NCBI GenBank assembly: GCA_030694465.1
Contig: JAUXYJ010000062.1
Location: 26,370-90,369 of the forward strand
From: Deltaproteobacteria bacterium
GTDB taxonomy: Bacteria > Myxococcota_A > Polyangia > Polyangiales > Ga0077539
Direction of reading: 5' to 3'
DNA: 64,000 bases
This document shows positions 6,477 to 63,983 of this stretch, piece by piece. The notes under the pieces are model-generated. The model saw only the letters and a list, made by a program, of their open reading frames with translations, was not told where the DNA came from and did not search any database. Made by a program: the position numbers and the translations under genes. Positions within the stretch are counted from its first letter, which is position 1, and each line of letters starts with the position of its first letter.

Positions 6477-7603
6477 GACAAGCAGCGCGACGGGGCGCTG
6501 CGAGCGTGTGGTTGCTCGCGCTCTGGGTGGGTTTGCCTGCGCGCGCGCAAGACCTCCCAGACCTGCAGCTTCGTCGCGAAGACCAGTTCGCCGCAGACGC
6601 GCAGCACACTGGACGCAGCGCGCTTAGGGGGCCACGCACGGCGCCGTCGATCCGCTGGCGTGTCCGCGCACGTCGGCGCGTGTTTGCGTCCCCGATGGTG
6701 GACCCCGACGGGTATGTGGTCTTCGCGGGCATCGATGGGCGCGTGCGTGCCGTGGACCTCGAAGGCGTCGTTCGCTGGAGTTTTGCTGCGCCATCGTATG
6801 TGTTTGCGACCCCAGCGCGGGTGAGCACGGGGATCATCGCGGGGTACAACGGCGGCGCGTTTGTCGCGCTCAATGGGCGCGGGCACGTGCAGTGGCGGCA
6901 CGCGGTCGCAGACGACGCAGACTGCAGCCCCACGGTGGGCCGAGACGACGCGCTCTATCTCGCCGCGCGTGGTGTGTCCGCGGTCCATGGGCGCACGGGC
7001 GAGGCGCGTTGGCGCTGGGAGGGCCCGCGGGTGCTCGGAAGCGTAGCACTTTCGCCTGATGAATCCCAGGTGATTGTGATCCCAGTAGACCACATCTTGC
7101 GGTGGCTTGATGCGCGCAACGGGCGAGAGCTGCGCCGCGTGCTCGTGCCCTCGTTGGTCGAGAGCGCGCCCCTGGTGCTCGACGATGGCGTGGTTGTGGT
7201 TGGCAGCGAAGATGGCCATGTGCGGGCGTATCGACCCGACGCGACCCTCTTGTGGGACCACGCGCTGAGCGCTCCGGTGCGCAGCACGCCCACGTTTGCG
7301 CGAGATCGCAGCGTGGTGGTCGGCGGCGATGATCTTCACGTCCGGGCTCTCGACCCCGCGACCGGCAACGAGCGATGGAGCGTACGTACGGGCGGATTTG
7401 TCCGCGCGGCGGCCACGATCGATCGCGACGGTTGGATCTATGTCGGCTCCGAAGACGACCGGTTGTACGCGATCGGTCCCGACGGAGCGCTGCGCTGGAG
7501 CCTCACGATGAGCGCAGACCTCGATGATCGCGCGCTGATTGTGCAGGACGGTGTGATGGCTGTGGGGACCGACGATGGGGCGCTGTACCTCTTGCGTGAG
7601 TGA
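6473..7603 (+). CDS. PQQ-like beta-propeller repeat (BamB-like) secreted protein
   Basis: Signal-like N-terminus; repeats such as DPDGYVVFAGIDGRVRAVDLEGVVRW and DRDGWIYVGSEDDRLYAIGPDGALRW. Confidence 0.75.
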   Translation: MRQAARRGAASVWLLALWVGLPARAQDLPDLQLRREDQFAADAQHTGRSALRGPRTAPSIRWRVRARRRVFASPMVDPDGYVVFAGIDGRVRAVDLEGVVRWSFAAPSYVFATPARVSTGIIAGYNGGAFVALNGRGHVQWRHAVADDADCSPTVGRDDALYLAARGVSAVHGRTGEARWRWEGPRVLGSVALSPDESQVIVIPVDHILRWLDARNGRELRRVLVPSLVESAPLVLDDGVVVVGSEDGHVRAYRPDATLLWDHALSAPVRSTPTFARDRSVVVGGDDLHVRALDPATGNERWSVRTGGFVRAAATIDRDGWIYVGSEDDRLYAIGPDGALRWSLTMSADLDDRALIVQDGVMAVGTDDGALYLLRE

Positions 7604-7654
7604 GTAAGAGCGCGCGCGAATTACGGTGTTACAACGGGTGCGGATACGCACACC

Positions 7655-9916
7655 ATGAGCAGTACACTCCCCGATGACGCCGTGATTCTCGCCGCGTTCG
7701 ATGACGAATCGCGCAAAGCACTCTTGAGCTCCGAAGTGCTCGAGAAGCTTGGGCTCCCAACGTTTCAACGAAAGCTCTTAGAGCAAGCGCTCGACGCCCT
7801 CGCGATGCGCGAATTGCTGAGCAAAACCAGCGCAGGACGCTATCGCCTGCCCAAGCGCCGCGCTGCCTCAAGCACGCTCGTGGGCTACTACAACCACAAC
7901 CCGCGCGGCTTCGGCTTTGTGGTCCCCGAAGACGGCAGCGAAGACATCTTTGTGTCTGCCACCAGCATCGCGGGCGCGATGCACAGCGATCGCGTCGCGG
8001 TGCGGGTCATCGCCGGTGAGCGAGGCCGCGAAGGGCTCGTCCAAGAGATCGTACAGCGGCGCTCGGCGAAGATCCCGGGCACTTTGGTCCTCCGCGGTGA
8101 GGCCGCGTTTGTAGACTGCGACGACCCCAGGGTGCGAGGCCCGATTATTGTAGAGCGCCACCGAGATGCACGCGATGGCGACGCGGTTCTGTGCAGAATT
8201 ACACGGTTTCCTGAGCACAGCGGCGAGCTCCCCGTGGGCGAAGTCCAGGGCTCACTCGGCCGCCCGGGGCAGCTCGACGTCGAGGTGCTCAAGTCCATCG
8301 CGCGCGAGGGCGTCGAAGAAGAATTCAACGAAGACGCTCGCGCCGAAGCCGCGGCGTTGCCCAAACGCATCAGCGCCGAAGACGCCGAGGGCCGCGAAGA
8401 CCTCCGACACATTCGCTTGATCACGATTGACCCCGATGACGCCCGCGACCACGACGACGCGGTGTTTGTGCGGCGAACCGACGACGGTGGCTACCTCGCG
8501 CTCATCGCCGTCGCCGATGTCTCGCACTACGTGCAGCCCGGGACCGCGCTGGACCGTGACGCGCGCGCTCGGGGCACGAGCATTTATCTTCCCGATCGCG
8601 CCATCCCGATGTTGCCGCGCGAGCTGTCGTCCAACCTCGCGTCGCTCCTTGAGGGCGAAGACCGCTTGACCCTCGCCGTCGAGGTCCATGTCACCGCGGA
8701 CGGCCGTATCGGTCGGAGCCGTACCATCGAGGGCGTGATGCGCTCGCACGCGCGGCTGACCTACTCGAACGTCGCTCACACGCTCGGCTGGTCCGACGTC
8801 CCTGCGCCCTCGGCGCGCGCCGAAGAGCTCCGCGAAGACCTCGAAATCGCCGCGGAATTGTCCTCGCTCTTGAAGTCGCGGCGGATGCGCCGGGGCTCGC
8901 TTGAGCTCGATGTGCCCGAGGGCCGCGTGAAGTTTGGCCCCGACCTCAAGACCCCCATCGACATCGTGCAGTCACGGCGCGATCCAGGGCTCAAGAGGGC
9001 CTACTCGCTTGTCGAAGAGCTTATGTTGTTGGGCAACGAAGTCGTCGCGTCGATCTGCGTGGCGCGTGAGCTCCCGACGGTCTACCGCGTCCACGGCGAG
9101 CCCAAAGAAGAAGGGCTCTTGCGGTTCACCGCAGGCGCCCGCGCGCTGGGCCATGACCTCGACCCGCAAGACACCAAGAGCCCCAAGAAGCTCAACAAGT
9201 TCTTGCGCAAAGTGGCCAAGTCACCGGGCGTCGATGTGCTGCAGGTGCTCTTGCTGCGGGCCATGCAGCAGGCAAGCTATAGTGTTGATAACATTGGTCA
9301 TTTTGGGCTCGCGAGCGAAGCGTATTTGCACTTTACTTCGCCCATCCGGCGCTACCCCGACATCTTGGTCCATCGCGTGATTCGGCAGATGGCGCGACGA
9401 GAGCGAATCCGCAAAGACCCCGAGGCGATCGCCATGTTACGCGCAGACTCGATTCACTCTTCGCGCATGGAGCGCAGGGCCATGGACGTCGAGCGTGACG
9501 TGATGGACTTGCACCGCTGCGTCGTGGCGCAGGGACACATCGGCGAGACCTTCACGGCGATGATCACCGCGGTCAACGGCAGCGGCGCGTTTGTGCGCAT
9601 TGACGAGCCCTATCTCACGGCGCTCTTGCGCGGCTCGAGTCTGCACGAGACCGAGTGGGAGGTAGACACTTTTGGGCTCTCGGTGCGCGGTCGAAAGACA
9701 GGGCTCACGCTGCGCGTCGGGGACCGTCTGCAGGTCGAAATCGAAGACGTCTCGCTCGCACGAAAGAGCGTGTTTGTGCGGCTTGCCATCGCGACGCTCG
9801 AGGCCCTGCGCGTTGAGTCTCGCAAGCGCGAAAAGCGCAGCAAGCCCGCGGCGATCGACAAGCGCGTGGGAGCTAAGCGCAAGCGAGACAAGGCACCGCG
9901 CGGAGGCCGCTCGTGA
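7655..9916 (+). CDS. rnr: Ribonuclease R / RNase II family exoribonuclease
   Basis: RNB motifs RLITIDPDDARDHDDAVFV, GTSIYLPDRAIPMLPRELSSNLASL, HFTSPIRRYPDILVHR; C-terminal S1 domain and basic tail. Confidence 0.92.
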   Translation: MSSTLPDDAVILAAFDDESRKALLSSEVLEKLGLPTFQRKLLEQALDALAMRELLSKTSAGRYRLPKRRAASSTLVGYYNHNPRGFGFVVPEDGSEDIFVSATSIAGAMHSDRVAVRVIAGERGREGLVQEIVQRRSAKIPGTLVLRGEAAFVDCDDPRVRGPIIVERHRDARDGDAVLCRITRFPEHSGELPVGEVQGSLGRPGQLDVEVLKSIAREGVEEEFNEDARAEAAALPKRISAEDAEGREDLRHIRLITIDPDDARDHDDAVFVRRTDDGGYLALIAVADVSHYVQPGTALDRDARARGTSIYLPDRAIPMLPRELSSNLASLLEGEDRLTLAVEVHVTADGRIGRSRTIEGVMRSHARLTYSNVAHTLGWSDVPAPSARAEELREDLEIAAELSSLLKSRRMRRGSLELDVPEGRVKFGPDLKTPIDIVQSRRDPGLKRAYSLVEELMLLGNEVVASICVARELPTVYRVHGEPKEEGLLRFTAGARALGHDLDPQDTKSPKKLNKFLRKVAKSPGVDVLQVLLLRAMQQASYSVDNIGHFGLASEAYLHFTSPIRRYPDILVHRVIRQMARRERIRKDPEAIAMLRADSIHSSRMERRAMDVERDVMDLHRCVVAQGHIGETFTAMITAVNGSGAFVRIDEPYLTALLRGSSLHETEWEVDTFGLSVRGRKTGLTLRVGDRLQVEIEDVSLARKSVFVRLAIATLEALRVESRKREKRSKPAAIDKRVGAKRKRDKAPRGGRS

Positions 9917-50847: not shown

Positions 50848-50927
50848 CGCGCGGGGGCGAGGGCTGTGTGAGCGGTGGGCGACAGGCGAGGCCGTGGGGC
50901 TCGGGAGTGTCCGAGACAGGTCGAGCA

Positions 50928-51947
50928 ATGTGGGACTTTGGGGCGCGTGATAGCGTCCTTGCACCAATGGGAGCGAGGAGGCCAGAGGAGACGGTGGCGC
51001 GGGTGCTCGGCGTGCTGCTTGCGCAGCGAATGCTGCGGCAGAGCGAGCTCGCGAGGCAGGCCGAGGTCACCGGCGAGACCGCGGCGAAAGTGCTCGGAGA
51101 CCTTAAGAACGGCGGGCTCCCGTTGACCCGAGAGCTCGAGGGGCGGGCGGTGATCTGGAGTGTTCCGGATGGGTGGTTTCCGAATGGGGTTTTGTTTGAG
51201 GGCGACGACGCTGGGCAGCTGCTGCGATTGTTGTTGCGCTTGCCGAGTGGAGGCGTGCGGGACGCGTTTATCGAGCGGATCAAGGCCGCGTCACTGAGCG
51301 CGCGCGAGGTGTCCCGCAGCGTGGGCGCGGTCCGACCGGCCGCGGTCGAAGCGCAGCGCGACGGCGCGAGCCGATTTCGGTCCGTGATCGAAGAAGCCAT
51401 CGTCCGGGCGCGGGCGATCGAGCTGAAATATCACGGCACCAAAGACCTCGAAGGCCACTGGCGCACGGTCTCGCCGCAGACCGTGGTCGGGGCGTCGCGC
51501 CCTACGCTCATCGCGTGGGACCATCGCAAGTCCGCGCTGCGCACGTTTCGGGTCGATCGCGTACAGAACGTGATGGATGTCGAGGGGATTGCCTACGTCC
51601 GCGTAGACGAGTCGCGCATCGACGCCGAGGTCTCAGAGAGCTTTAACGGGTACTGCGGAGGCGAGCTGCGCGAGGTCTCGATGCTGATCGACCACGACGC
51701 GTGGGCCATCGTCGAGCACAACCTCCCGTTTATCGCCCAGCGGATTGAGCACACCAACAGAGGCGTCCGTGTCGTCGCAAAGAACCGCGGCGGCGAGGTG
51801 ATGAACCGCTTTTTGCTCGCGTACGGCGCTCGCATGACCGTCGAGACTCCCCGCGTCCGCGACGAAGTGCTGCGTTTGGCCAAACAAACCGTAGAGAGGC
51901 TCGCGTCCACCGGCGGGCCTTCACCGCGTAAGCGAACCCCCGGTTAA
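50928..51947 (+). CDS. HTH plus WYL-domain transcriptional regulator adjacent to the cas operon
   Basis: N-terminal HTH (MLRQSELARQAEVTGETAAKVLGDLKNGG); WYL-like IELKYHGTKDLEGHWRTVSPQTVVGASRPTLIAWDHRKSALRTFRVDRVQNV. Start could also be 50967. Confidence 0.8.
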   Translation: MWDFGARDSVLAPMGARRPEETVARVLGVLLAQRMLRQSELARQAEVTGETAAKVLGDLKNGGLPLTRELEGRAVIWSVPDGWFPNGVLFEGDDAGQLLRLLLRLPSGGVRDAFIERIKAASLSAREVSRSVGAVRPAAVEAQRDGASRFRSVIEEAIVRARAIELKYHGTKDLEGHWRTVSPQTVVGASRPTLIAWDHRKSALRTFRVDRVQNVMDVEGIAYVRVDESRIDAEVSESFNGYCGGELREVSMLIDHDAWAIVEHNLPFIAQRIEHTNRGVRVVAKNRGGEVMNRFLLAYGARMTVETPRVRDEVLRLAKQTVERLASTGGPSPRKRTPG

Positions 51948-52028: not shown

Positions 52029-54935
52029 ATGACAGCAATCGACGACACCGCCCCGACGTACCTTCGGTACTGGGGCAAGGCAGACCCCGCGGTGGCGGGG
52101 GGCTATCACCCGGCGGCGTACCACTCGCTCGATGTGGCCTGTGTGGCCGAGGGGATCTTGCAGCAGAGCGCAGTGCTGCGCGGCAAGTTCGCGCGCTTGT
52201 TGGGGCTGAGTGAAGAGGCCACCGTGGCCACCGTGGCGGGGCTGTGTGCGGTGCATGACCTGGGCAAGTTCGACGCGAGGTTTCAGGCCAAGGTCCCTGA
52301 GGTTGTCGCGATGCTTAACCGCGAGGCCGAGTGGGCTGGGATCGTGGGCAAGGGCTTTGACCACGGAAGCCAAGGGTTTGTCGCTTTCAACGATTGGGCT
52401 ACGGACGATCTTGTCGCGTACGAGTCGTTGCTTGGTTTGTGGACAGCCGCGCGGCCCTTGCTCGCTGCGGTGTGTGGTCACCATGGCTATGTCCCAACGG
52501 GCGGCGAAAAAAATACCAACACGGTGCCCCTCAAGGTGCGCAAGGCCGATCGGGCTGCACAGCGCGCGTACGTGCGCGACGTGATCGCGATGTACCAAGC
52601 CGATGGCGCGGTCTTTCCGTTGCAAATGACTGCATCGCTTGCATCGCAACAGCTGCTCGCTGGGCTGTGCTCGGTCGCCGATTGGGTCGGGTCGCAGGTC
52701 GAGTTTGATGAGCAGCCGTTGTTTGTCTACGAGACCACCGCGATGCCCTTGGCGCAGTACCGTGAGCGTGCGCGACAGATCGCGCAGCGGGTCTTGCGGG
52801 CGCTCCCGTTTGGGCGCTCCGAGACACGGGACGTGGGCTTTGGTGAGCTCTTTCGGGACAGCGCGGGCAAGCCCTTTGCGCCGCGCGATGTGCAGGTCGC
52901 GACCGAGCTGCTCACGCTCGGCGACGAGCCCGCCTTGGTGATCGTCGAGGCCGCCATGGGCAGCGGAAAAACCGAAGCAGCGCTCTCGCTTGCGTCCAAG
53001 TGGGTGCGCCACGGCGCTGCCTCGGGGTGGTTTGTGGGCCTCCCGACGATGGCCACGGCCAACGGGATCATGGACCGCGTCGAGGTCACAGCCACGCGTT
53101 TTTTTGGCGGCTCCGAGGGTGGTGCGCAGTTTCGGTTGTCCCACGGGACCGCACGCAAGAACGACGCGTTTGACCGCATCGTGAAGCGCTCCCTTCGAGG
53201 GCGCGCTGCGCTTGCGGCGAGCAAAGACTTTGACGAGACCGAGGCCGAGGTCCAGTGCGCGCGGTGGTTTCTGCCTGCAAAAAGAGCGCTCTTGGCGCAG
53301 GTGGGCGTGGGCACCGTCGACCAAGCGATGATGGCCGCCCTGCGCACCAAGCACGGGTTTGTGCGCTTGTTTGGCTTGGCCAGCTCGGTGGTGGTGATCG
53401 ACGAGGTGCATGCCTACGACGCGTACATGGAGGTGATTCTTGAGCGCTTGGTGCACTGGCTCGGGCTGCTGAGGACCCCGGTGGTCTTGCTGTCTGCGAC
53501 GCTGCCTGCGGCGCGAAGGCGTGCGTTTGTCGCGGGATACCGCGCGGGGCTCGCGGGCGCAGCGCTCGATGTGCACACCGACGAGACACCAGCGAGCCAA
53601 GCGTATCCGCTGGTGACCGTGGCCCGCGAGTCCGGTGTCGAGGCACACGCCGCGACCCCTACCGAACAGAGAACACTTGCGGTCGAGGTCGTCGAGACAG
53701 CGCTGGATCGGGATGCGATCGATGCGACGCATCCTGAGGTGATCGCGCTGGTCGAGGCCGCGCTCGCGGGCGAGATGGTGGTGTGGATTCGCAACACGGT
53801 GGACGAGGCGCGTGCGGCGTACAAAGCGCTGCGAGCGTGCGCGCAAGAGCGAGGGTTGGATCCGTCGCGGGTGTGGTTGTTTCACTCAAGGTTTAGGCAG
53901 CGGGACCGCGCGGCGATCGAGAAGCAAGTACTCGCAGAGTTCGGGCGCGAGGGACGGACGTGCAGATGTCCGACGATTCTGGTGGCGACGCAGGTAGTCG
54001 AGCAGTCGTTGGACTTGGACTTCGACCGCATGGTGTCGGACCTGGCGCCCATCGATCTATTGTTGCAGCGCGCAGGGAGGCTCTGGCGCTGGGCGCGCAA
54101 CGCGGACGCGCCGAGACGTCCCGCTGGGGCGCGTGAGGTGTTGCGTGTGCTGGCTCCGCCCAGTGCGGCCCGCGATGGGCTGCGGTTTGGCGGCGGGGGG
54201 TATGTCTACGACAAGGCCACGCTGTGGCTCACCCACGACTCGCTCAAGGGCGTTGCGAGCGTGGCGTTGCCCGGCTCGGTGCGCGCGCTCATCGAGGCCA
54301 CGTACGACCCCACGCAACGAAGCAAGCGCCTCGAAGCGGCTCCTGTGCGCGAGGCGCTCTTGAAGGCCGAGGCTGCCACCGCGGACGAGCTTGCAGCGCT
54401 GCGAGCGCTGGCTGAAAAGTGCACGCTCCCGGACCCCGGCGCAGAGGCTCGGGCGAGCGCAGATGCGGTGCCCGATGACGAAGAGAGCGTGCGCGCGGTC
54501 ACGCGCGTGGGGAGCTCGGTGACGCTGCTTCCGCTCTGGTGGGACCTCGAGACCTGCGAGGTGAGACCCCTCGATGCGGCGTTTGCAGACGACCCCATGC
54601 GCTATCCGGCGATGGGCGCATTCGATGCGAAGTCCAAGACGGCGTGGCGTGATCTGGATGCGCTGCAAGAGCAGTTTGTGCGCATGCCCGAGTACGACTG
54701 GGACAAGGTGCTGCGTGCGGCGACGGCCAAGGGCGAGCACGAGATTTGGGACGCGTGGGCCAAGGGCTGCAGCGCGTTTCTCGAAGAGCTTCGGCAGCGC
54801 GGCGTGGTCATCTTGCCGATGGTCTTGCGGGGCGAGACGTTTGTCGGGGCGATCGAGTTTTCTAAGCAAATTCGCACGGTGAAATACGCGATCCGTGAGG
54901 GTCTTTGGGTAGTACGGGAGGCAAAGAGCGGATGA
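52029..54935 (+). CDS. cas3: CRISPR-associated helicase/nuclease Cas3 (HD-helicase fusion, type I)
   Basis: HD motif AVHDLGKFDARFQAKV; Walker A EAAMGSGKTEAAL; DEVHAYD; QVVEQSLDLDFD...LIDLLLQRAGRLWR-like region. Confidence 0.95.
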   Translation: MTAIDDTAPTYLRYWGKADPAVAGGYHPAAYHSLDVACVAEGILQQSAVLRGKFARLLGLSEEATVATVAGLCAVHDLGKFDARFQAKVPEVVAMLNREAEWAGIVGKGFDHGSQGFVAFNDWATDDLVAYESLLGLWTAARPLLAAVCGHHGYVPTGGEKNTNTVPLKVRKADRAAQRAYVRDVIAMYQADGAVFPLQMTASLASQQLLAGLCSVADWVGSQVEFDEQPLFVYETTAMPLAQYRERARQIAQRVLRALPFGRSETRDVGFGELFRDSAGKPFAPRDVQVATELLTLGDEPALVIVEAAMGSGKTEAALSLASKWVRHGAASGWFVGLPTMATANGIMDRVEVTATRFFGGSEGGAQFRLSHGTARKNDAFDRIVKRSLRGRAALAASKDFDETEAEVQCARWFLPAKRALLAQVGVGTVDQAMMAALRTKHGFVRLFGLASSVVVIDEVHAYDAYMEVILERLVHWLGLLRTPVVLLSATLPAARRRAFVAGYRAGLAGAALDVHTDETPASQAYPLVTVARESGVEAHAATPTEQRTLAVEVVETALDRDAIDATHPEVIALVEAALAGEMVVWIRNTVDEARAAYKALRACAQERGLDPSRVWLFHSRFRQRDRAAIEKQVLAEFGREGRTCRCPTILVATQVVEQSLDLDFDRMVSDLAPIDLLLQRAGRLWRWARNADAPRRPAGAREVLRVLAPPSAARDGLRFGGGGYVYDKATLWLTHDSLKGVASVALPGSVRALIEATYDPTQRSKRLEAAPVREALLKAEAATADELAALRALAEKCTLPDPGAEARASADAVPDDEESVRAVTRVGSSVTLLPLWWDLETCEVRPLDAAFADDPMRYPAMGAFDAKSKTAWRDLDALQEQFVRMPEYDWDKVLRAATAKGEHEIWDAWAKGCSAFLEELRQRGVVILPMVLRGETFVGAIEFSKQIRTVKYAIREGLWVVREAKSG

Positions 54936-56452
54936 TCGAGCAATTCAATGTCCTGCGTGATCCGTGGATCGCGCTCTGGCGTGATGACAAGCGTGTGTTG
55001 GTGACGCTCGAAGAGCTCCTCGCGGGCGACGCAGAGTCGTCCCGAGAGATCGCGCACTCGCGAGACGAGCTGCGCGCGTTTTCGCACGTGTTGTTGTCGG
55101 CGCTGTTGCAGGCGCTCTTTGCGCCAGGCTCGCTTGAGAGCCTCAGAGAGCGGATCGGTGTGCCCATGGATCGCGCGGCGATTCGTGCAGCGATCGACGC
55201 GGTCGCCGACGACTTTGAGCTCTTGGGAGAGCCTGGCTGGATGCAGCACGGGCCGAGGCTCGATGCCGACCGCACCGATGCGCTCTTTCACGAGTTTAGT
55301 GACACGTATCGGCCGCATCTTGCGCGGGGCGTGAGCCTCACGGGCGGCGTGTGTCCTGCGTGTGCGGTTGTGGGGCTCTACGGCTTCATGGCGTTTGCCC
55401 CTGCGGGAGGCAGTGGTTATTCGCCGAGCGTGCGCGGCACGCCGCCCCTGTCGACGCTTGTGCGGGCGGGCTCGGTGCGTGCGACCGCGTGGGCCAACGT
55501 GCTTGTGCTCCGTGGTGCAAGCGAGACCTATGGTCCAGAGTCGTCGCGTCCCTGGGCCATCGCGCCCGAGACGCTTGAGCCCGACGGGAGCACGAAGCAA
55601 TATCGTCGCGACGCGCACGCCATTGGGCTTGTGGAGGGGCTCTTCTGGAAGCCGCGCGCAGTGCGACTTGCACCGGCGGATGACGGCGAGTGTCCGCTCT
55701 GTGGGGGCCACGGCGCGCGCGTGATTGCGTGTGGGTTTACCAAGGGCGCCAAGAAAGAAGACGGCTTCTTCGAGCACCCGCTGACCCCGTCGGTCGTGAT
55801 CAAGAACGAGCGCCGAACGCAGCACATCGCGACGGACAAACCAGTGTGGACTGGCTTGGCGGACATGCTCCCTGCGGTGCGTGCGGGCAGCGCCAAGGCC
55901 TCGGACCCTCAGGCTGCGCCGACGGTACGCCAGTGGCGCGTCCTGACGCCGGTCCCGTTAGAGCTTTTTGTGTTCGCCTATCGCTTTGACAACGCGTCCA
56001 TGGAGGGGCGGTTTTTTGAGAGCTACCCCGCGCTGAAGAAGTCCGGAGACTCAGATTTTGCCAGGGCGATCGAGACCATGGTCGCCCGCGCAGAGGACAC
56101 GGTGTCTGCGCTCGCGAGTGCGCTCAAGCGCGCGTTTAGCGACAACCCCAAGTCCAAGGGCGCGTACTGGCCCGAAGAAGCGCGGCAGCAGTTTTGGCGA
56201 CGGGCAGAGACGCCATTTTGGAGTGCGGTCGCGCTGCTTGACGCCGAGGAGGAGCCACCCCTGTGGGGGCCTGCGATGGCGCGGCTTGCGCGCTCGCTCT
56301 TTGACACGATGACCTCGCTCACCGACGCGCAGTTTGACGGGCGACGGCACATCGAAGCTGCGCGCAAGAAGCTCAACGTAGAGCTCAAGATTTTGGGCAA
56401 GGCTGACCCGCAAGCGCCCACGGATTCGCGAACCAACGCAGGAGGGACCTGA
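54932..56452 (+). CDS. cse1: Cascade large subunit Cse1/CasA (type I-E)
   Basis: ATGA overlap with cas3; MIEQFNVLRDPWIALW...; ALFHEFSDTYRPHLARGVSLTGGVCPACAVVGLYGFMAF. Confidence 0.92.
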   Translation: MIEQFNVLRDPWIALWRDDKRVLVTLEELLAGDAESSREIAHSRDELRAFSHVLLSALLQALFAPGSLESLRERIGVPMDRAAIRAAIDAVADDFELLGEPGWMQHGPRLDADRTDALFHEFSDTYRPHLARGVSLTGGVCPACAVVGLYGFMAFAPAGGSGYSPSVRGTPPLSTLVRAGSVRATAWANVLVLRGASETYGPESSRPWAIAPETLEPDGSTKQYRRDAHAIGLVEGLFWKPRAVRLAPADDGECPLCGGHGARVIACGFTKGAKKEDGFFEHPLTPSVVIKNERRTQHIATDKPVWTGLADMLPAVRAGSAKASDPQAAPTVRQWRVLTPVPLELFVFAYRFDNASMEGRFFESYPALKKSGDSDFARAIETMVARAEDTVSALASALKRAFSDNPKSKGAYWPEEARQQFWRRAETPFWSAVALLDAEEEPPLWGPAMARLARSLFDTMTSLTDAQFDGRRHIEAARKKLNVELKILGKADPQAPTDSRTNAGGT

Positions 56453-57072
56453 TGAACATTCACGACGAGGTGATTGAGAGCGCTGCGCGCACGATGCGCG
56501 AGCGATTTGACCGAGAAAAGCACGTGGTGCGGCCGCTCAGATCGGGCGATGTCGCTGCGATCAAGCGCTACGCGACTGTGGGCGACGCGCTGGTCGACGG
56601 CGCGTTTTGGGCGCTCTTTAACGAGCACAAGAATCTCTTTGCCGGAGCCAACGCGGACGAAACTGAGCTGGACCGTGTGGCAAGCGCGGTGGCCATCGCG
56701 GTGTGCACGTTTGGGGCTGCGCGCGCGGGGGCTCCGTCGCGCTCGTTGGGCGCGTGGATCGCGTCGGGTTTGCGCGCCAAGGGGCTGCCCGAGGGGGGCG
56801 CAAACCTGAGGTTTCGGCAGCTTGCCGCGGCGCGGACACCGGACGAGCTGGTGCGACGACTGCGTGCGCTGCTCAAGCTCATCGGGCTGCCGGTGGACTG
56901 GGGCGTGGTGGTCAAAGACGTCTTGCACTGGAGCAAGAGCGCTGGCTCACGAGAGCGCGTCACGCGCGCCTGGGCGCGAGGATTTTACGGGTCAACCGAC
57001 GACGAGGCAGACGACACAGACCGCGGAGCAAAGACCGCAGCAACGAAGACCGAAGGAGCAACAGAGCGATGA
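56452..57072 (+). CDS. cse2: Cascade small subunit Cse2/CasB
   Basis: ATGA overlap, position, size (206 aa), RFRQLAAARTPDELVRRLRALLKL-like region. Confidence 0.88.
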   Translation: MNIHDEVIESAARTMRERFDREKHVVRPLRSGDVAAIKRYATVGDALVDGAFWALFNEHKNLFAGANADETELDRVASAVAIAVCTFGAARAGAPSRSLGAWIASGLRAKGLPEGGANLRFRQLAAARTPDELVRRLRALLKLIGLPVDWGVVVKDVLHWSKSAGSRERVTRAWARGFYGSTDDEADDTDRGAKTAATKTEGATER

Positions 57073-58427
57073 GTGATTCAACGAAGCGTGGGCGCAATGT
57101 GTTTGTGGAGTTTCACGTGCTGCGGTCGTACGCGCCGGGCAACATGAACCGCGATGATCTTGGCACGCCCAAGACGGCGATGTTTGGCGGCGTTCGGCGG
57201 CTTCGGTTGTCGAGCCAGTGCGTCAAGCGCACTTGGCGCGTGAGCGAGCATTTTACCGGGACCTTGGGCCGCGAGGCGCTGGGGGTTGAGGTGCTGGGTG
57301 TGCGCACCAAGCGCTTGCCCGAGCGCGCGCAGGCGCAGCTTGGCGGCGAGCTAGCGCAGGACGCGATCGATGGGTTGACCGAGGTTTTGCAGCGCATCGG
57401 CCGCAAGGATGCGCCCTCGAAGGACGACGAGAAGACCACCGCGCACTTGCTCTTTCTGACCCACGAAGAGATCGCCGAGGTCGCCGCGTTTGCCAAAAAG
57501 AACAAAGGCGAGCTTGCGAAGTTGGGTGCGCTCGCGAACGCGCAGCGGGCCGCCGACGCCGCGCCAGCTGCCGACAACGAAGACAGCGAAGAGGATGCTG
57601 CCGAAGAACCCAAGGCCAAGGGTGCTAAGTCCGCGAAGGGCGCCAAGGGCAAGGGAAAGGGCAAGAAGACCGACAGCGGCACAGAGCGCCAGAGCATCAC
57701 AGACGCGATGTTGGCTGCGTTGACCAAGCACCTGCACGAGTCCGCGCCGCGCAACGCGGTCGATGTGGCGCTCTTTGGGCGCTTTGTGACCAGCACGGAG
57801 TTTAAGAGTGTCGACGCTGCGATGCAGGTCGCGCACGCGCTGGGGACGCAGAAGGTTGATCTCGAGTACGACTATTTTACGGCGGTCGACGATCTCAAGC
57901 CCAAGGGCGAGGACGCGGGCGCGGGGCACTTGGGAGAGACCGAGTTTGCACAGTCAGTGCTCTACCAGTACGCGGTGTGCGACTGGCGCTCGCTCTTGGC
58001 CAATCTTGAGGGCTACGAGGGCGAGGCCACGCGGATCGCGGCGCAGTCGATGCGCGCGGTCGCGCTTGCGGCGTGTCGCTCGGTTCCGCGCGGAAAAGAG
58101 AACGGAACCGCGCCACAGAACCCTGCAGACTACCTTGAGATTGTGGTGCGTCGGGATGCGCCCATGAGCTTGGCCAACGCGTTCTTGCAGCCCGTGCGTG
58201 CCATTGAAGACACCGACTCAGGCGATGTGATGGACCAATCCATTCACAGGCTGCGAGGTCTCGCGACGAAGTATCAAGCGGCGTACTCGACGTCGGGCGA
58301 TGTGATCGCGCGGTTGGTGCTCTCGATGCGCGATCTGCAAGCGCGGGATGCCAAGGACGTGACCGAGTTTGCGACGCTCGATGAGATCGCTAAGCGTGTG
58401 GCGAGCGTGCTCGAGGCCGAGGCATGA
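57069..58427 (+). CDS. cas7: Cascade backbone Cas7e/Cse4/CasC, with a charged insertion
   Basis: FVEFHVLRSYAPGNMNRDDLGTPKTAMFGGVRRLRLSSQCVKRTWR; TAVDDLKPKGEDAGAGHLGETEF. Confidence 0.94.
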   Translation: MSDSTKRGRNVFVEFHVLRSYAPGNMNRDDLGTPKTAMFGGVRRLRLSSQCVKRTWRVSEHFTGTLGREALGVEVLGVRTKRLPERAQAQLGGELAQDAIDGLTEVLQRIGRKDAPSKDDEKTTAHLLFLTHEEIAEVAAFAKKNKGELAKLGALANAQRAADAAPAADNEDSEEDAAEEPKAKGAKSAKGAKGKGKGKKTDSGTERQSITDAMLAALTKHLHESAPRNAVDVALFGRFVTSTEFKSVDAAMQVAHALGTQKVDLEYDYFTAVDDLKPKGEDAGAGHLGETEFAQSVLYQYAVCDWRSLLANLEGYEGEATRIAAQSMRAVALAACRSVPRGKENGTAPQNPADYLEIVVRRDAPMSLANAFLQPVRAIEDTDSGDVMDQSIHRLRGLATKYQAAYSTSGDVIARLVLSMRDLQARDAKDVTEFATLDEIAKRVASVLEAEA

Positions 58428-59206
58428 GCGAGCGCGGGCTGTGCGCGCTCTCGTTGGTCTTCGAGGGACCGATGCAGAGCTACGGAGCGAGCGCGGTGGG
58501 CAAAGATCGCCCCACCGAGGACGCGCCGACCAAGAGCGCTGTGCTGGGGCTCTTGGGGGCCGCGCTGGGCATCGCGCGTGACGACGTCCAAGCGTTGGTC
58601 GCGCTCGATCGCGCGTTTGATCTGGTGGTGCGTGTCGACCGGCCTGGCGACCTGCTCGACGACTACCACACGTCGTTGGACGTCCCCTGGATCGACGGCG
58701 GAGGGATCTACAGGCACGCTGAGATCACCCGGCGGAGGTACCTGTGTGGGGCGAGGTTTACCCTGTGGTTGGTGTCGACCGCGGCGAGCGAGCAGTTGTT
58801 GGCTACGTGGCACGATGCGCTGCGCTATCCGCGGTATGCGCCGGTGCTGGGGCGTCGTGGGTGTCCTCCGGGGGCTCCGACGGTGGGACCCGTGTTTGCG
58901 CTGGTCCGAGCGGCCACGTGGCGCGAGCTGGTGGGCACGGTGGCGCTGGACGACGCGAGCCTGCGTGACGCTAGCTTTCGCAGAGACACGACGTGGGCGG
59001 TGCATGTCGACGAGTCGCTGTGTAGCGGCGAGGACGTGCGTGGGCATCGCAAGCTCATTCGGCGCGACCGGCTGGTGGGGCCAGGGAAGCGGATGTTTTA
59101 TGACCGCACGGTGCGGGTGTTTGCGTGGTCGCCGAGCGAGGCATCGCGAGACGCACGAAGTGACTCGCCGGGACGTGACACGACGGAGGGATATTTCGAT
59201 GCGTGA
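58424..59206 (+). CDS. cas5: Cascade subunit Cas5e/CasD
   Basis: LSLVFEGPMQSYGASAVGKDRPTEDAPTKSAVLGLLGAALGI. Confidence 0.93.
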   Translation: MSERGLCALSLVFEGPMQSYGASAVGKDRPTEDAPTKSAVLGLLGAALGIARDDVQALVALDRAFDLVVRVDRPGDLLDDYHTSLDVPWIDGGGIYRHAEITRRRYLCGARFTLWLVSTAASEQLLATWHDALRYPRYAPVLGRRGCPPGAPTVGPVFALVRAATWRELVGTVALDDASLRDASFRRDTTWAVHVDESLCSGEDVRGHRKLIRRDRLVGPGKRMFYDRTVRVFAWSPSEASRDARSDSPGRDTTEGYFDA

Positions 59207-59954
59207 TGGCTATCTCTCGAAGGTCACGTTGAGCCCACGGAGGGGTGAGCACGCGTGGATGAAATTGCGGGATCTCTACGACGTTCACCAGGCGATTTGG
59301 GCCGCGTTTGCGGGCGGTGAGCCAGGAGCCCAGGCGCCGTTTTTGTTTCGCGCGGACCCGGTGCGCGAGGGGGACGTGATGGTGATGCGAGCGCTGGTTC
59401 AGAGCGTGCGCGTGCCGGACTGGGCTGCGTTGGGGGACTCGGTGACCTCGGTCGAGGGGCCCAAGTCTCGTGACGACGCGTGGTGGGACGCGCACGCGCA
59501 GAAGGGCGCCGTGCTGCGGTTCTTTTTGCGGGCCAACACGACGCAGTCGGTGCGCGATGGGCATGGCGACGACCCCAAGCCCTTGGTCCCAGGCGGGCCT
59601 CGGACGCGCGGAAAACGTGTAGCGCTTGAGGGCGAGCAAGCGCAGCTCGATTGGTTTGCCCGTCGCGCCGCGGGCTGCGGGTTTGCGCTGTGTCAGCGAG
59701 AGATCGTGGTCAAGCGCAGGGACGGCAGCGTGCTCTCGGCGCACCATGAGCCCGAGCTGCGGACGAGCAACGTGCGGGTGTGGCGTTGGGCTGCGGGCGA
59801 GGGCAAGCGCTTTGCGTCGCACCAGGGTGTGGACTTTGAGGGCCTGCTTGAGGTCACCGATCAGGCGCTGCTGCGTCGCGCGGTGCAAGACGGGATTGGG
59901 CCTGCAAAGTCCATGGGCTTTGGGATGCTCTCGTTGGCGAGGCACGTGGGCTGA
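59199..59954 (+). CDS. cas6e: crRNA endonuclease Cas6e/CasE
   Basis: MRDGYLSKVTLSPRRGEHAWMKLRDLYDVHQAIWAAFAG; C-terminal GIGPAKSMGFGMLSLARHVG; RBS-like ggaggg upstream of the ATG. Confidence 0.92.
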   Translation: MRDGYLSKVTLSPRRGEHAWMKLRDLYDVHQAIWAAFAGGEPGAQAPFLFRADPVREGDVMVMRALVQSVRVPDWAALGDSVTSVEGPKSRDDAWWDAHAQKGAVLRFFLRANTTQSVRDGHGDDPKPLVPGGPRTRGKRVALEGEQAQLDWFARRAAGCGFALCQREIVVKRRDGSVLSAHHEPELRTSNVRVWRWAAGEGKRFASHQGVDFEGLLEVTDQALLRRAVQDGIGPAKSMGFGMLSLARHVG

Positions 59955-60772
59955 TGGAGCGGCTGCCGTACAAAGAGCGCGAGCCGTTCTTGCATCTTCG
60001 GTATGGCAGGCTGGACGTCAAAGACAACGCGCTGGTGCTCGAGGACAAGAAGGGCACGCGGATGCAGATCCCGGCGGGGGCGATCGCTTCGCTGATGCTT
60101 GAGCCGGGGATGGTCGTGACGCACGCGGCGGTGAAGCTGTGTGCCGAAGAAGACTGTCTTATGATCTGGTGTGGCGAGGGCGGCGTGAGGTTCTATGCGA
60201 CCGGTGCGCCGGGGGGGGCGCGGTCGGACAAGCTGCTGTTTCAGCTCGGGCTGTCGCAGGACCCGAAGAAGCGGCTGATGGTGGTCCGCGAGATGTTTCG
60301 CAGGCGATTCGGCGAGGATGGCCCGGACCGACGCAGCGTAGAGCAGCTTCGAGGGCTCGAAGGTGCGCGAGTGCGCGAGCAGTACCAGAAGCTCGCGGAC
60401 GCGCACGGGGTTGTGTGGCGGGGGCGCAACTACGACACGAGCAAGTGGCTCGCGGGCGACGAGATCAACCGTGCGATCAGCGCGGCCAACGCGTGCGTGT
60501 ATGGCGTGAGCGAGGCGGCGATTTTGGTGGCGGGTTACTCGCCGGCGATTGGCTTTTTGCACAGCGGGCGGCCGCTGAGTTTTGTGTACGACGTGGCGGA
60601 CTTGTACAAGTTTGAGCTGAGTGTTCCGGTGGCGTTTGCGGTGGTGGCCGAGCGCAAGCACAAGGACATTGAGGGGGCGGTGAGGCGACGGCTGCGCGAT
60701 GTCTTTAAGGCGCAGCGGATCATGGCGAAGATCATCCCTGACATCGAGAACATCTTGGGGGTCGCCGAGTAA
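59954..60772 (+). CDS. cas1: CRISPR integrase Cas1 (type I-E)
   Basis: MERLPYKEREPFLHLRYGRLDV; NRAISAANACVYGVSEAAILVAGYSPAIGFLHSGRPLSFVYDVADLYK. Confidence 0.95.
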   Translation: MERLPYKEREPFLHLRYGRLDVKDNALVLEDKKGTRMQIPAGAIASLMLEPGMVVTHAAVKLCAEEDCLMIWCGEGGVRFYATGAPGGARSDKLLFQLGLSQDPKKRLMVVREMFRRRFGEDGPDRRSVEQLRGLEGARVREQYQKLADAHGVVWRGRNYDTSKWLAGDEINRAISAANACVYGVSEAAILVAGYSPAIGFLHSGRPLSFVYDVADLYKFELSVPVAFAVVAERKHKDIEGAVRRRLRDVFKAQRIMAKIIPDIENILGVAE

Positions 60773-60775
60773 GCC

Positions 60776-61150
60776 ATGTGGGTCATCGACCTCGAAAACG
60801 CGCCCGATCGCCTACGCGGAACGCTCTCTCGCTGGGGCGTCGAGGTCCGCGCCGGGCTCTACGTGGGCAGCGCGAGCGGCAGGGTGCGCGACGCGCTCTG
60901 GGAGCTTGTGCGATCCCTGGCGAGCGCCGACACCAGCGCCGTGATGGTGTTTGACGCGAGCGGACCGCAGGGGTTCGAGGCGCGCACGCACGGGCGCAAC
61001 CGTCGCGAGATCGTGGACATGGACGGGCTGTGGCTCGCGCGGTTCGAGCCGGTGCGGGCAGAGTCGTATGAGCCCAGCGTGGATGAGCTCACGGACGACG
61101 CGATGGCGTTTGACCCGGGCGAGATCGAGGCGGGCTACCTTGAGCCGTGA
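60776..61150 (+). CDS. cas2: Cas2e
   Basis: MWVIDLENAPDRLRGTLSRWGVEVRAGLYVGSASGRVRDALWELV; directly downstream of cas1. Confidence 0.92.
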   Translation: MWVIDLENAPDRLRGTLSRWGVEVRAGLYVGSASGRVRDALWELVRSLASADTSAVMVFDASGPQGFEARTHGRNRREIVDMDGLWLARFEPVRAESYEPSVDELTDDAMAFDPGEIEAGYLEP

Positions 61151-61177
61151 GGGCCGCGGGGCGCGGGAGGGTGGGTC

Positions 61178-61373
61178 GTGGGCGACACGCTGGGCGGTGG
61201 GCGACAGCCGGGGAGCCTTGGGCGACAGCCGGGAGGCCGTGGGCGACACGCAGAACCGTGGGCGACAGGCCAAACAGGCTGTGGGCGACACCGGGGAGGC
61301 GCTGGGCGACACCGGACAGCCCTTGGGCGACACGTGGCGAGCCGTGGGCGACACACGGGGCCGTGGGCGACAG
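61178..61373 (+). repeat. Interspersed motif array: ten TGGGCGACA copies at ~21-bp spacing
   Basis: Copies start at 61179, 61198, 61219, 61240, 61259, 61282, 61303, 61324, 61345, 61364 (steps 19,21,21,19,23,21,21,21,19) separated by variable GC-rich spacers. Confidence 0.85.
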
Positions 61374-61472
61374 GGCGCGGTGCGCAGTGGGGGGTCTTTG
61401 CAGCGTCGCGAAGTTGTGGTGCGATCTGGGGCAAGTCGCGGCGCGGCTGCCGCGGCGGGGAGAGACAACATC

Positions 61473-62393
61473 ATGACGACGAGCAAAAAGCCCGCGACGA
61501 AAGAGTCGTCGGCGGGCAAGGCGGCTGCGGCGAAGGTCGTGGCAAAGAAGGGTTCGACGGCGTCTGGCGGGACGGGAGCTTCGGCGACTGGGCTCATCCG
61601 GGCGTGGGAGGGCGATGTCAACGCGTTGATCGCAAAAGAGAGCACGGAGGTGGTGTCGCTGGGGATTCCGTTCTCGGTCTTTTTAGGCGAGTGCGTGGAC
61701 TGCGCGCGGTTTATCCGCGAGTTTTGGGAGCCTTTGGATGGCGAGCGGCCGGGCTTGGTCTGCGCCGCCAAACCGGGCGACGGAGACGCCTCGTTTAATC
61801 TCCAGACCGCGGACATCATCTTGCGGTTGCACAGCGAGGTCTTGACCGCGCAGACGCAGTACCTGTTGTCGGCCAAGGCGAAGAAGTCCGCAGCGGGGTT
61901 GCTTGAGCGCGCGGCGAAGCTGCTCGACGACATGAGCGCCGCGCTTGAGTGGTACTTTGACGACGGGGTCGAGGACGACAAAGACGCGCAGTTGGGTGCG
62001 GTTCGGGCGGCGCATGACCTGTCGAGCGGGGCGATGGACGTGGTCGCGGCGGCGCTCGAGAGCTACGCGGGGCTGGCCGAAAAGCACATCGATGCGATCG
62101 ACGGGACGCTTGGCTTTGAGCGGGCGTTTGTGGACGAAGCGCGCAAGGTCTCGCGGCAGTTGTTCGAGATGAACAGTGCGCTCGAGAGCAACCCCGAGTC
62201 TGAGGCGGCGCTCAAGCGTCGCAACAAGCTCGTGGCGGCGCTGCGATCGCGGGTGCTGCGGACGCGCAAGGTGGCGCAGCTCGTGTTTCGCGCGCAGCCC
62301 GAGATCGCGCGGCTGGTGACCAGTGCGTACCAGCGGAGGGCTCGCACGGCGCTGCGCCGAAGCGCGGCTGGCGGCGCTCCGAAGGTGACCTGA
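61473..62393 (+). CDS. Unknown 306-aa, mostly alpha-helical protein with Lys/Ala-rich N-terminal tail, between cas2 and the CRISPR array
   Basis: ATG at 61473 preceded by ggggagag; MTTSKKPATKESSAGKAAAAKVVAKKGSTASGG tail then helical body; TGA at 62391-62393. Confidence 0.75.
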   Translation: MTTSKKPATKESSAGKAAAAKVVAKKGSTASGGTGASATGLIRAWEGDVNALIAKESTEVVSLGIPFSVFLGECVDCARFIREFWEPLDGERPGLVCAAKPGDGDASFNLQTADIILRLHSEVLTAQTQYLLSAKAKKSAAGLLERAAKLLDDMSAALEWYFDDGVEDDKDAQLGAVRAAHDLSSGAMDVVAAALESYAGLAEKHIDAIDGTLGFERAFVDEARKVSRQLFEMNSALESNPESEAALKRRNKLVAALRSRVLRTRKVAQLVFRAQPEIARLVTSAYQRRARTALRRSAAGGAPKVT

Positions 62394-62488
62394 TGGCCCC
62401 CGTCTGTGGCACCTTCGGACAGGCCCAAAAGGTCGGTACGAAAATGGTCTTTGAAAAAGTGAAGTGATTTCCGTAACTTCTGGGAAGT
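62394..62488 (+). promoter_or_regulatory. CRISPR leader with candidate promoter (TTGAAA 62451-62456, 17-bp gap, TAACTT 62474-62479)
   Basis: Locally AT-richer stretch (gaaaatggtctttgaaaaagtgaagtgatttccgtaacttc) immediately before the first repeat; short inverted repeat gaagt...acttc. Confidence 0.55.
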
Positions 62489-63983
62489 GTGGTCCCCGCC
62501 TGCGCGGGGATGAGCCGGTCGAGATGACCGCCGAGGTCAGCACGCGCAGGTGGTCCCCGCCTGCGCGGGGATGAGCCGCTTGCCGAGCCAGCAGCGAAAC
62601 GAGCGGCCCCGTGGTCCCCGCCTGCGCGGGGATGAGCCGCCGCGTGGCTGTCCGCGCGCGCACTACTCGCGGTGGTCCCCGCCTGCGCGGGGATGAGCCG
62701 CGGTATAGGACAGTACAGCCAGGTCATGTATGCGTGGTCCCCGCCTGCGCGGGGATGAGCCGACCGGTTACGGCGCGTGGTAGGGCGGTCGTTAGTGGTC
62801 CCCGCCTGCGCGGGGATGAGCCGGTCGACGTCGTGGCGGAGTACGTCATGGCCGAGTGGTCCCCGCCTGCGCGGGGATGAGCCGCAAACGAGGTATCCGG
62901 CGAGCGTTGCATCATCGTGGTCCCCGCCTGCGCGGGGATGAGCCGCTCAGAGTCAAACCCGTAAACGGCGCCCAGTGGTGGTCCCCGCCTGCGCGGGGAT
63001 GAGCCGGCTAACGATCCAATGAGCACGACCGAGACATAGTGGTCCCCGCCTGCGCGGGGATGAGCCGACGTCGACGCGCGCGTGGCGTTGGTCGCGCTGG
63101 TGGTCCCCGCCTGCGCGGGGATGAGCCGTTGGCGAGGGCTTGAGCTTTGGTCTTGTACCTGTGGTCCCCGCCTGCGCGGGGATGAGCCGCATCCTCTTCG
63201 CAGTCTCCGCAAACATGAGCGGTGGTCCCCGCCTGCGCGGGGATGAGCCTGTCCAGCAGATTCATCGCCTCCTGTCCAGCCCGTGGTCCCCGCCTGCGCG
63301 GGGATGAGCCGCTCACAGCCTGGGCTGTGGTGGCTCCTGGAGGGTGGTCCCCGCCTGCGCGGGGATGAGCCGTCGGTGAGCATCGACGGACTCAACGGCG
63401 ACTCGTGGTCCCCGCCTGCGCGGGGATGAGCCAGAATCGTCAGGACGCAGACAGCGCGCTGATTCGGTGGTCCCCGCCTGCGCGGGGATGAGCCGCCTGT
63501 GGTGAGCTCCCAGCGATTCTCCTCAGCGTGGTCCCCGCCTGCGCGGGGATGAGCCAGCCGTGCGCGTTTGGGCCGCACGCTACCGCTCGTGGTCCCCGCC
63601 TGCGCGGGGATGAGCCGCTCAGCGCGCGACGCTGAAAGGGGCCGCGTGTGTGGTCCCCGCCTGCGCGGGGATGAGCCGGAGCTCCGAGAGCACTGCGTTT
63701 TCACTTTCCAGTGGTCCCCGCCTGCGCGGGGATGAGCCGATCAGAGTCAAACCCGTAAACGGCGCCCAGTGGTGGTCCCCGCCTGCGCGGGGATGAGCCG
63801 TGTCGCGACTTCCATGGGACATGGACGAGTTCGTGGTCCCCGCCTGCGCGGGGATGAGCCGAATGACGCCTGATGCGGTCGCAGAATGGAGCAGTGGTCC
63901 CCGCCTGCGCGGGGATGAGCCGGTTCGCAAAACCGGGCAACGGCTAGCGGAGACGTGGTCCCCGCCTGCGCGGGGATGAGCCG
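62489..63983 (+). CRISPR. Type I-E CRISPR array: 25 repeats visible, 29-nt repeat GTGGTCCCCGCCTGCGCGGGGATGAGCCG, 24 complete spacers of 32-33 nt; continues past window end
   Basis: Repeat starts 62489, 62550, 62611, 62672, 62734, 62795, 62856, 62917, 62978, 63039, 63100, 63161, 63222, 63283, 63344, 63405, 63467, 63528, 63589, 63650, 63711, 63772, 63833, 63894, 63955; repeat hairpin CCCCGC/GCGGGG. Confidence 0.99.

Follow-up and report, generated by a model that had tools for sequence, protein, structure and literature searches.

Which function has a protein gene that is inserted between cas2 and the leader of a CRISPR locus? This question is raised by a type I-E locus of a Deltaproteobacteria bacterium, located in a stretch of 64,000 nucleotides which we analysed as a whole and refer to as the window. 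The inserted gene codes for a protein of 306 amino acids, termed here P0001. In the original prediction, made from the sequence alone, the protein was regarded as a possible accessory factor for adaptation or for array DNA, or else as an unrelated passenger.

The Locus Between cas2 and the CRISPR Leader

All features of the locus are encoded on the forward strand. The type I-E operon in the window is complete, comprising the genes for Cas3, Cse1, Cse2, Cas7, Cas5, Cas6e, Cas1 and Cas2. The effector genes cas3-cse1-cse2-cas7-cas5-cas6e (52029-59954) were identified by their family matches, cas1e (59954-60772) by TIGR03638 (347 bits) and cas2e (60776-61150) by TIGR01873 and PF09707 (73.9 bits against TIGR01873, which has a cut-off of 33.15). 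A WYL-domain regulator with a match to the CRISPR-associated WYL of PADLOC is encoded immediately 5′ of cas3 (50868-51947).

The P0001 gene starts with an ATG at 61473 and the stop codon ends at 62393. The coordinates thus confirm that an open reading frame with its own ATG lies between cas2e and the leader in the orientation of the cas genes, and the ribosome binding site-like sequence that had been claimed for it is present as a GGGGAG shortly 5′ of the ATG. The DNA from the stop codon to the first repeat is taken as the CRISPR leader (95 bp, 62394-62488); it is followed by the CRISPR array, in which 25 repeats (GTGGTCCCCGCCTGCGCGGGGATGAGCC) were read from 62489 to 63982, up to the end of the window. 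CRISPR spacers 8 and 21 (62945-62977 and 63739-63771) differ by one base only and are near-duplicates located 13 positions apart.

A Phased Repeat Array Upstream of the Gene

The first reading of the locus overlooked an array of ten direct repeats with a period of about 21 bp, which is located between cas2 and the open reading frame (61177-61374). It was identified with TRF, by alignment of the units and by a check with a second anchor. The array starts 27 bp past the cas2e stop (61150) and lies directly 5′ of the P0001 gene. Its core of nine bases, TGGGCGACA, is identical in all ten units (first copy at 61179-61187, last at 61364-61372), while the remaining positions are degenerate and agree in only 40-80% of the units; altogether, only 9-10 bp are conserved per unit. 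The core-to-core spacings are 19, 21, 21, 19, 23, 21, 21, 21 and 19 bp, and the period corresponds to two turns of DNA. Some of the spacings, i.e., 19 and 23, are not multiples of three and would shift the reading frame; the array is thus not a coding repeat, and coding heptads were rejected.

The same genome contains a second cassette of this layout on contig C23, with the core CGCGACA. Comparison of the window with this cassette by blastn revealed homology spanning the array region and the gene, not cas2, and therefore the unit is the array plus the gene. A block between array and open reading frame, GTTGTGGTGCGATC (61413-61426), has an identical copy in the C23 cassette (L017 9311) and is a possible promoter or 5′ control segment; a scan of the cassette for sigma-70 promoters found no consensus. 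A seven-base microsatellite (GCGACAA) on another contig of this genome (C41, 2827-2923) is unrelated to the 21-bp arrays.

The Protein Family and Its Predicted Fold

P0001 has a paralogue with 64% identity on C23 and homologues across the class, and we therefore regard it as a real gene. Homologues were found in seven of 98 relatives (its own genome counted among them), and a more sensitive profile raised the count to at least 374 members, spread over 99 of the 316 genomes of the class, with up to eight members counted per genome. A profile also picked up distant members elsewhere in the phylum, outside the class. As judged from these matches and the fold models below, this group, family 1, is a large, multi-copy and undescribed helical protein family of Myxococcota.

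P0001 contains no known domain according to searches of Pfam, NCBIfam (above cut-off), PHROG, PADLOC and the PDB sequences. An Hpt domain was considered and rejected, as the Pfam match (E 0.059) is below the cut-off. No known cas, CRISPR-associated or defence family was matched in Pfam, NCBIfam (above cut-off) or PADLOC, and since Pfam, NCBIfam and PDB gave no match to a Rep, ParB or centromere-binding family, the protein is not classed with the Rep or Par families. The NCBIfam family PQLLE (NF052641, threshold 80 bits) is possibly a remote relative; it reached at best 19.5 bits in distant members and gave no match for P0001.

AlphaFold2 models P0001 as all-helical and a member from Sorangium as nearly all-helical, with moderate confidence (pLDDT 70 and 77), in agreement with the predominantly helical body expected earlier. 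Foldseek searches with the models gave no significant match and no DNA-binding fold could be assigned. For the architectural proteins HU, IHF and H1 neither a sequence match nor a fold match was found with these models of moderate confidence. The best-conserved segment is located at the C-terminus (residues 265-296, codons at 62265-62360; R..A..VFR..PEI.R..TSAY.RR.R) and in the model comprises two helices, one long and one short, and a third that is rich in Arg. Among 16 divergent members R250, R265 and S284 are invariant and A223 and Y286 nearly so. We tentatively suggest the C-terminal end as candidate DNA-contacting part. The pI of family-1 members ranges from 4.6 to 10.2, some being acidic, and this spread calls for caution in assuming that every member binds DNA directly. 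The Lys/Ala-rich, histone-like N-terminal tail that had been noted is indeed present in P0001, in its C23 paralogue and in a few other proteins, but it is missing from most members of the family.

Arrays Beside Other Family Members

Self-similarity at a lag of 21 in the 450 bp upstream of the gene was above that of every same-locus control in 30 of 51 homologues, and in 39 of them the best lag fell at 20-22. Altogether, 46 arrays of approximately 21 bp were found in 758 kb of loci, from which the background array density was estimated; 30 of these arrays end at most 450 bp upstream of a family member, a zone that makes up about 3% of the DNA. Members found by profile outside the class, and further members in it, have arrays with periods of 20-22, 41-43 or 62-64 bp and unrelated unit sequences; as seen in two partly overlapping sets of members, these arrays either directly precede the gene or lie at most about 100 bp past the stop codon. 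Overall, roughly two thirds to three quarters of the members examined have a helically phased array beside the gene, and about a quarter to a third, some of them near contig ends, have no detectable array. Conserved across family 1 is the adjacency of gene and array together with the two-turn period, and not the unit sequence. At five loci (L053, L052, L054, L055 and L085) an inverted copy of the core follows the array (e.g., AGGGACAC...GTGTCCCT), which might form a terminal palindrome. No neighbouring gene recurs beside the members, whose neighbours are unrelated, and a partner gene was thus not found.

There is good support for the pairing of the gene with its array. On balance we consider it probable that both form an iteron-like module, in which the product of a gene from this large unnamed family is predicted to recognise its own array.

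Core Flavours and Solitary Arrays

In a tree of 54 family-1 members, orthologues across the Sorangium-type genomes G313-G317 share one core. Paralogues within one such genome differ in their core (CATCTGGACA, CATCAGGACA, CATCCGGAC, TTCCTGGACG, CGCCAGGGACA), one genome having five paralogues with five cores. As read from these five genomes of one genus, the array core is tracking the protein clade and not the genome; shared inheritance alone explains part of this match, because each array adjoins its gene.

Arrays with the core flavours of resident proteins also occur in solitary form, with no family member adjoining. In the genome studied here one solitary array has the flavour of the window (C103; GTGGGCGACA, like C20) and another that of the C23 paralogue (C73). 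The last unit of the latter (L152, 4413-4605) has the window flavour GTGGGCGACA. Solitary arrays of G313 have the cores CATCAGG and CATCTGG, and proteins of both types are present in that genome. Many CATCTGGACA arrays were found in G313-G317, with spacers that differ between the arrays; among solitary arrays the core is common, the spacer is not. That separate arrays keep the core invariant while their spacers vary freely suggests that a recognised site is under selection, and shared descent may account for part of the pattern.

The positions of the solitary arrays relative to genes are not consistent. A role as promoters of the next gene was rejected, as in G314 most of the arrays are antisense or convergent to the genes, which were called approximately. 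The CATCTGGACA arrays are confined to one strand in each single-contig genome (8 of 8 in G316, 3 of 3 in G315 and 4 of 4 in G314) and occur on both sides of the midpoint. This bias is not simply linked to replication: dnaA is located at base 58 in G314-G316 and both halves share the same strand.

The distribution of cores bears on the passenger reading, according to which the cassette is self-spreading or merely tolerated and its arrays are minisatellites generated by slippage, without site-specific recognition. The multiple copies, the patchy occurrence, the unrelated neighbours and the close paralogues within a genome (64% identity in family 1; 80% and 66% in the unrelated family 2 described below) are what a passenger would show. 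However, slippage would homogenise whole units, whereas here the cores are invariant, the spacers are degenerate and solitary arrays have cores in common with differing spacers. The 21-bp period is held in unrelated sequences across the phylum, no recombinase is linked to the cassette, and an origin from a plasmid, phage or virus was rejected, since no copy was found in plasmid, phage or viral-contig sequences. We therefore rate the passenger reading as rather unlikely.

The cas2-CRISPR Gap as an Insertion Site

The alternative of a dedicated CRISPR accessory, which like IHF of E. coli would act at the leader or help Cas1-Cas2 to acquire spacers, draws on the position and orientation of the gene. 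We compared 16 type I-E loci of the class in which the gap from cas2 to the CRISPR is fully visible, the window included. Nine of the gaps measure 39-212 bp and contain no gene. Two contain an open reading frame for a DnaQ-like exonuclease (L202 in G199 and L203 in G211). The remaining five, i.e., four of 15 besides the window, contain a helical-protein cassette. The inserted genes belong to family 1 in the window and in G264, and to a second family, family 2, in C79, G005 and G003; in the window, C79 and G005 the insert comes with a clear tandem array, and in G003 and G264 TRF detected none. The G264 gene, which lies in a different I-E lineage, was assigned to family 1 as a distant member by hhalign (probability 97.6%, E 4e-12). 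C79 is a second, distantly related I-E locus of the genome studied here (L223, reverse strand, 4465-7700; Cas1 34% identical to that of the window) and has a 43-bp array and an open reading frame for a helical protein of 226 amino acids in its gap. Family 2 is multi-copy and present in 38 of 316 genomes, with an upstream period that tends to 42-44 bp. A common superfamily of families 1 and 2 was rejected (hhalign probability 0.1%).

If genes were placed uniformly and each genome is assumed to have 6500 of them, chance would yield 0.003-0.008 gap placements in family 1 and 0.0006 in family 2. Cas1 proteins of the C79 lineage are 63-83% identical among themselves and only 33-36% identical to the Cas1 of the window, indicating that two I-E lineages gained cassettes separately. 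Because the window is itself ascertained and a single event may underlie all three family-2 cases, the surprise is reduced to at least one further family-1 placement and one family-2 placement. Gap occupancy is nevertheless far above chance, and the location of the cassette is thus not wholly accidental.

Both the excess over chance and the separate gains can be read in favour of an accessory. Against it stands the distribution of the family, with at least 374 members in 99 genomes compared with cas2e in only 18 of 316. Among about 50 family-1 loci examined with their flanks, cas genes are found beside the window member only, and most family-2 members examined have no cas genes nearby. The C23 paralogue has the tail and the array layout and no cas genes, and no insert is present in G001, which is closest to G005 (83% identity between the two Cas1 proteins). 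An accessory would be expected to recur next to I-E cas1-cas2. Besides the window, this position is taken in family 1 by the distant member in G264, and the other members examined are located away from cas genes; the two gap members (window and G264) exceed chance and are a tiny minority of the family. A dedicated CRISPR factor is not supported, since cas genes are absent around almost every member and the tail is not conserved. The wide spread of the family is largely what had been named beforehand as evidence against such a factor, and the G264 member and the three family-2 loci are in part what had been named as evidence for it. The original prediction of either an accessory or a passenger is partly supported, with the accessory being weak but not dead; we regard it as quite unlikely. 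We conclude that the cas2-CRISPR gap is a favoured site for such cassettes and that family 1 is not CRISPR-dedicated.

A Proposed Iteron-Like Module

The least favoured alternative is a type III toxin-antitoxin-like system, in which the repeats would be transcribed into an RNA restraining the downstream protein. In ToxIN, CptIN and TenpIN, tandem repeats of roughly 35-45 nucleotides lie upstream of the toxin gene, and ToxN-type toxins are compact beta-barrel RNases. Tandem repeats 5′ of a small protein gene resemble this layout, as do the family-2 repeats of 42-43 bp, but the window array folds no better than shuffled sequences (z +0.47) and has no Rfam match, only 9-10 bp per unit are conserved at spacings of 19-23, arrays can follow the gene or stand alone, and P0001 is modelled as helical and not as a beta-barrel, all of which makes this reading very improbable.

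The iteron-like module is the preferred reading. It is a cassette of two parts, the array (61177-61374) and the gene for the small all-helical protein (61473-62393), which are commonly co-inherited. The protein, or a complex containing it, would recognise cores of its own flavour along one helix face and assemble cooperatively on the array. In this way it would control its own expression, being probably autoregulatory, and solitary arrays that have this core may likewise be bound by it. At the locus in the window the cassette is lodged between cas2e and the CRISPR leader, and an effect on CRISPR expression or spacer acquisition, if any, would be secondary or local. The earlier suggestion that the protein acts on DNA retains some appeal, but the likeliest target is its own repeat array and not the CRISPR leader.

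More tentatively, Myxococcota might possess many parallel, mutually insulated systems of protein and repeat array. Each paralogue would read its own 9-10-bp core in arrays phased at two turns, at home as well as in dispersed solitary arrays, forming a code that marks or organises the chromosome and was recruited to the cas2-leader junction in some lineages. We consider this a possibility worth stating rather than a likely one. If the reading as an iteron-like module is right, large myxobacterial genomes would hold hundreds of copies of an undescribed family, each likely with its own repeat code. Such pairs would provide natural DNA-address systems that are orthogonal to one another, and would add a new layer to the regulation or organisation of the chromosome. 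The locus would also be a warning that a gene in the gap of a cas operon need not be a CRISPR gene.

Comparison With Known Systems

In the open-access literature nothing on family 1 was found among descriptions of tandem repeats or iterons in myxobacteria. A survey of myxobacterial CRISPR systems terms the I-E clusters canonical and, in the part available to us, mentions no gene of the P0001 kind (PMC11237760). The DnaQ-like exonuclease found with I-E cas2 is comparable in that an extra gene lies directly 3′ of cas2e before the CRISPR, but P0001 shows no relation to this enzyme and matched no nuclease. RAYT/REP systems share with family 1 a gene flanked by its own repeat and repeat copies dispersed in the genome; family 1 differs in having no match to a transposase family and in its direct arrays of short cores instead of palindromes. 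Plasmid iterons with their Rep proteins are similar in that direct repeats, phased at about two turns, lie beside the gene of the presumed binding protein, whereas family 1 has no Rep or winged-helix match and no plasmid copy, and its arrays are located on chromosome-sized contigs.

Among the mechanisms described from myxobacteria, the closest one is the partition system ParB/ParC of the Myxococcus plasmid pMF1, to which we liken family 1 by description. The pMF1 ParB binds iterons, had no GenBank homologues at the time and represses its own operon, and the iterons are located upstream, downstream and dispersed along the replicon (PMC3235114). The pMF1 system is plasmid-borne, includes a ParA ATPase and has the motif AGATGTCT in low copy number, whereas family 1 is chromosomal, has no linked ParA and consists of multiple paralogues with 9-10-bp cores in phased arrays.
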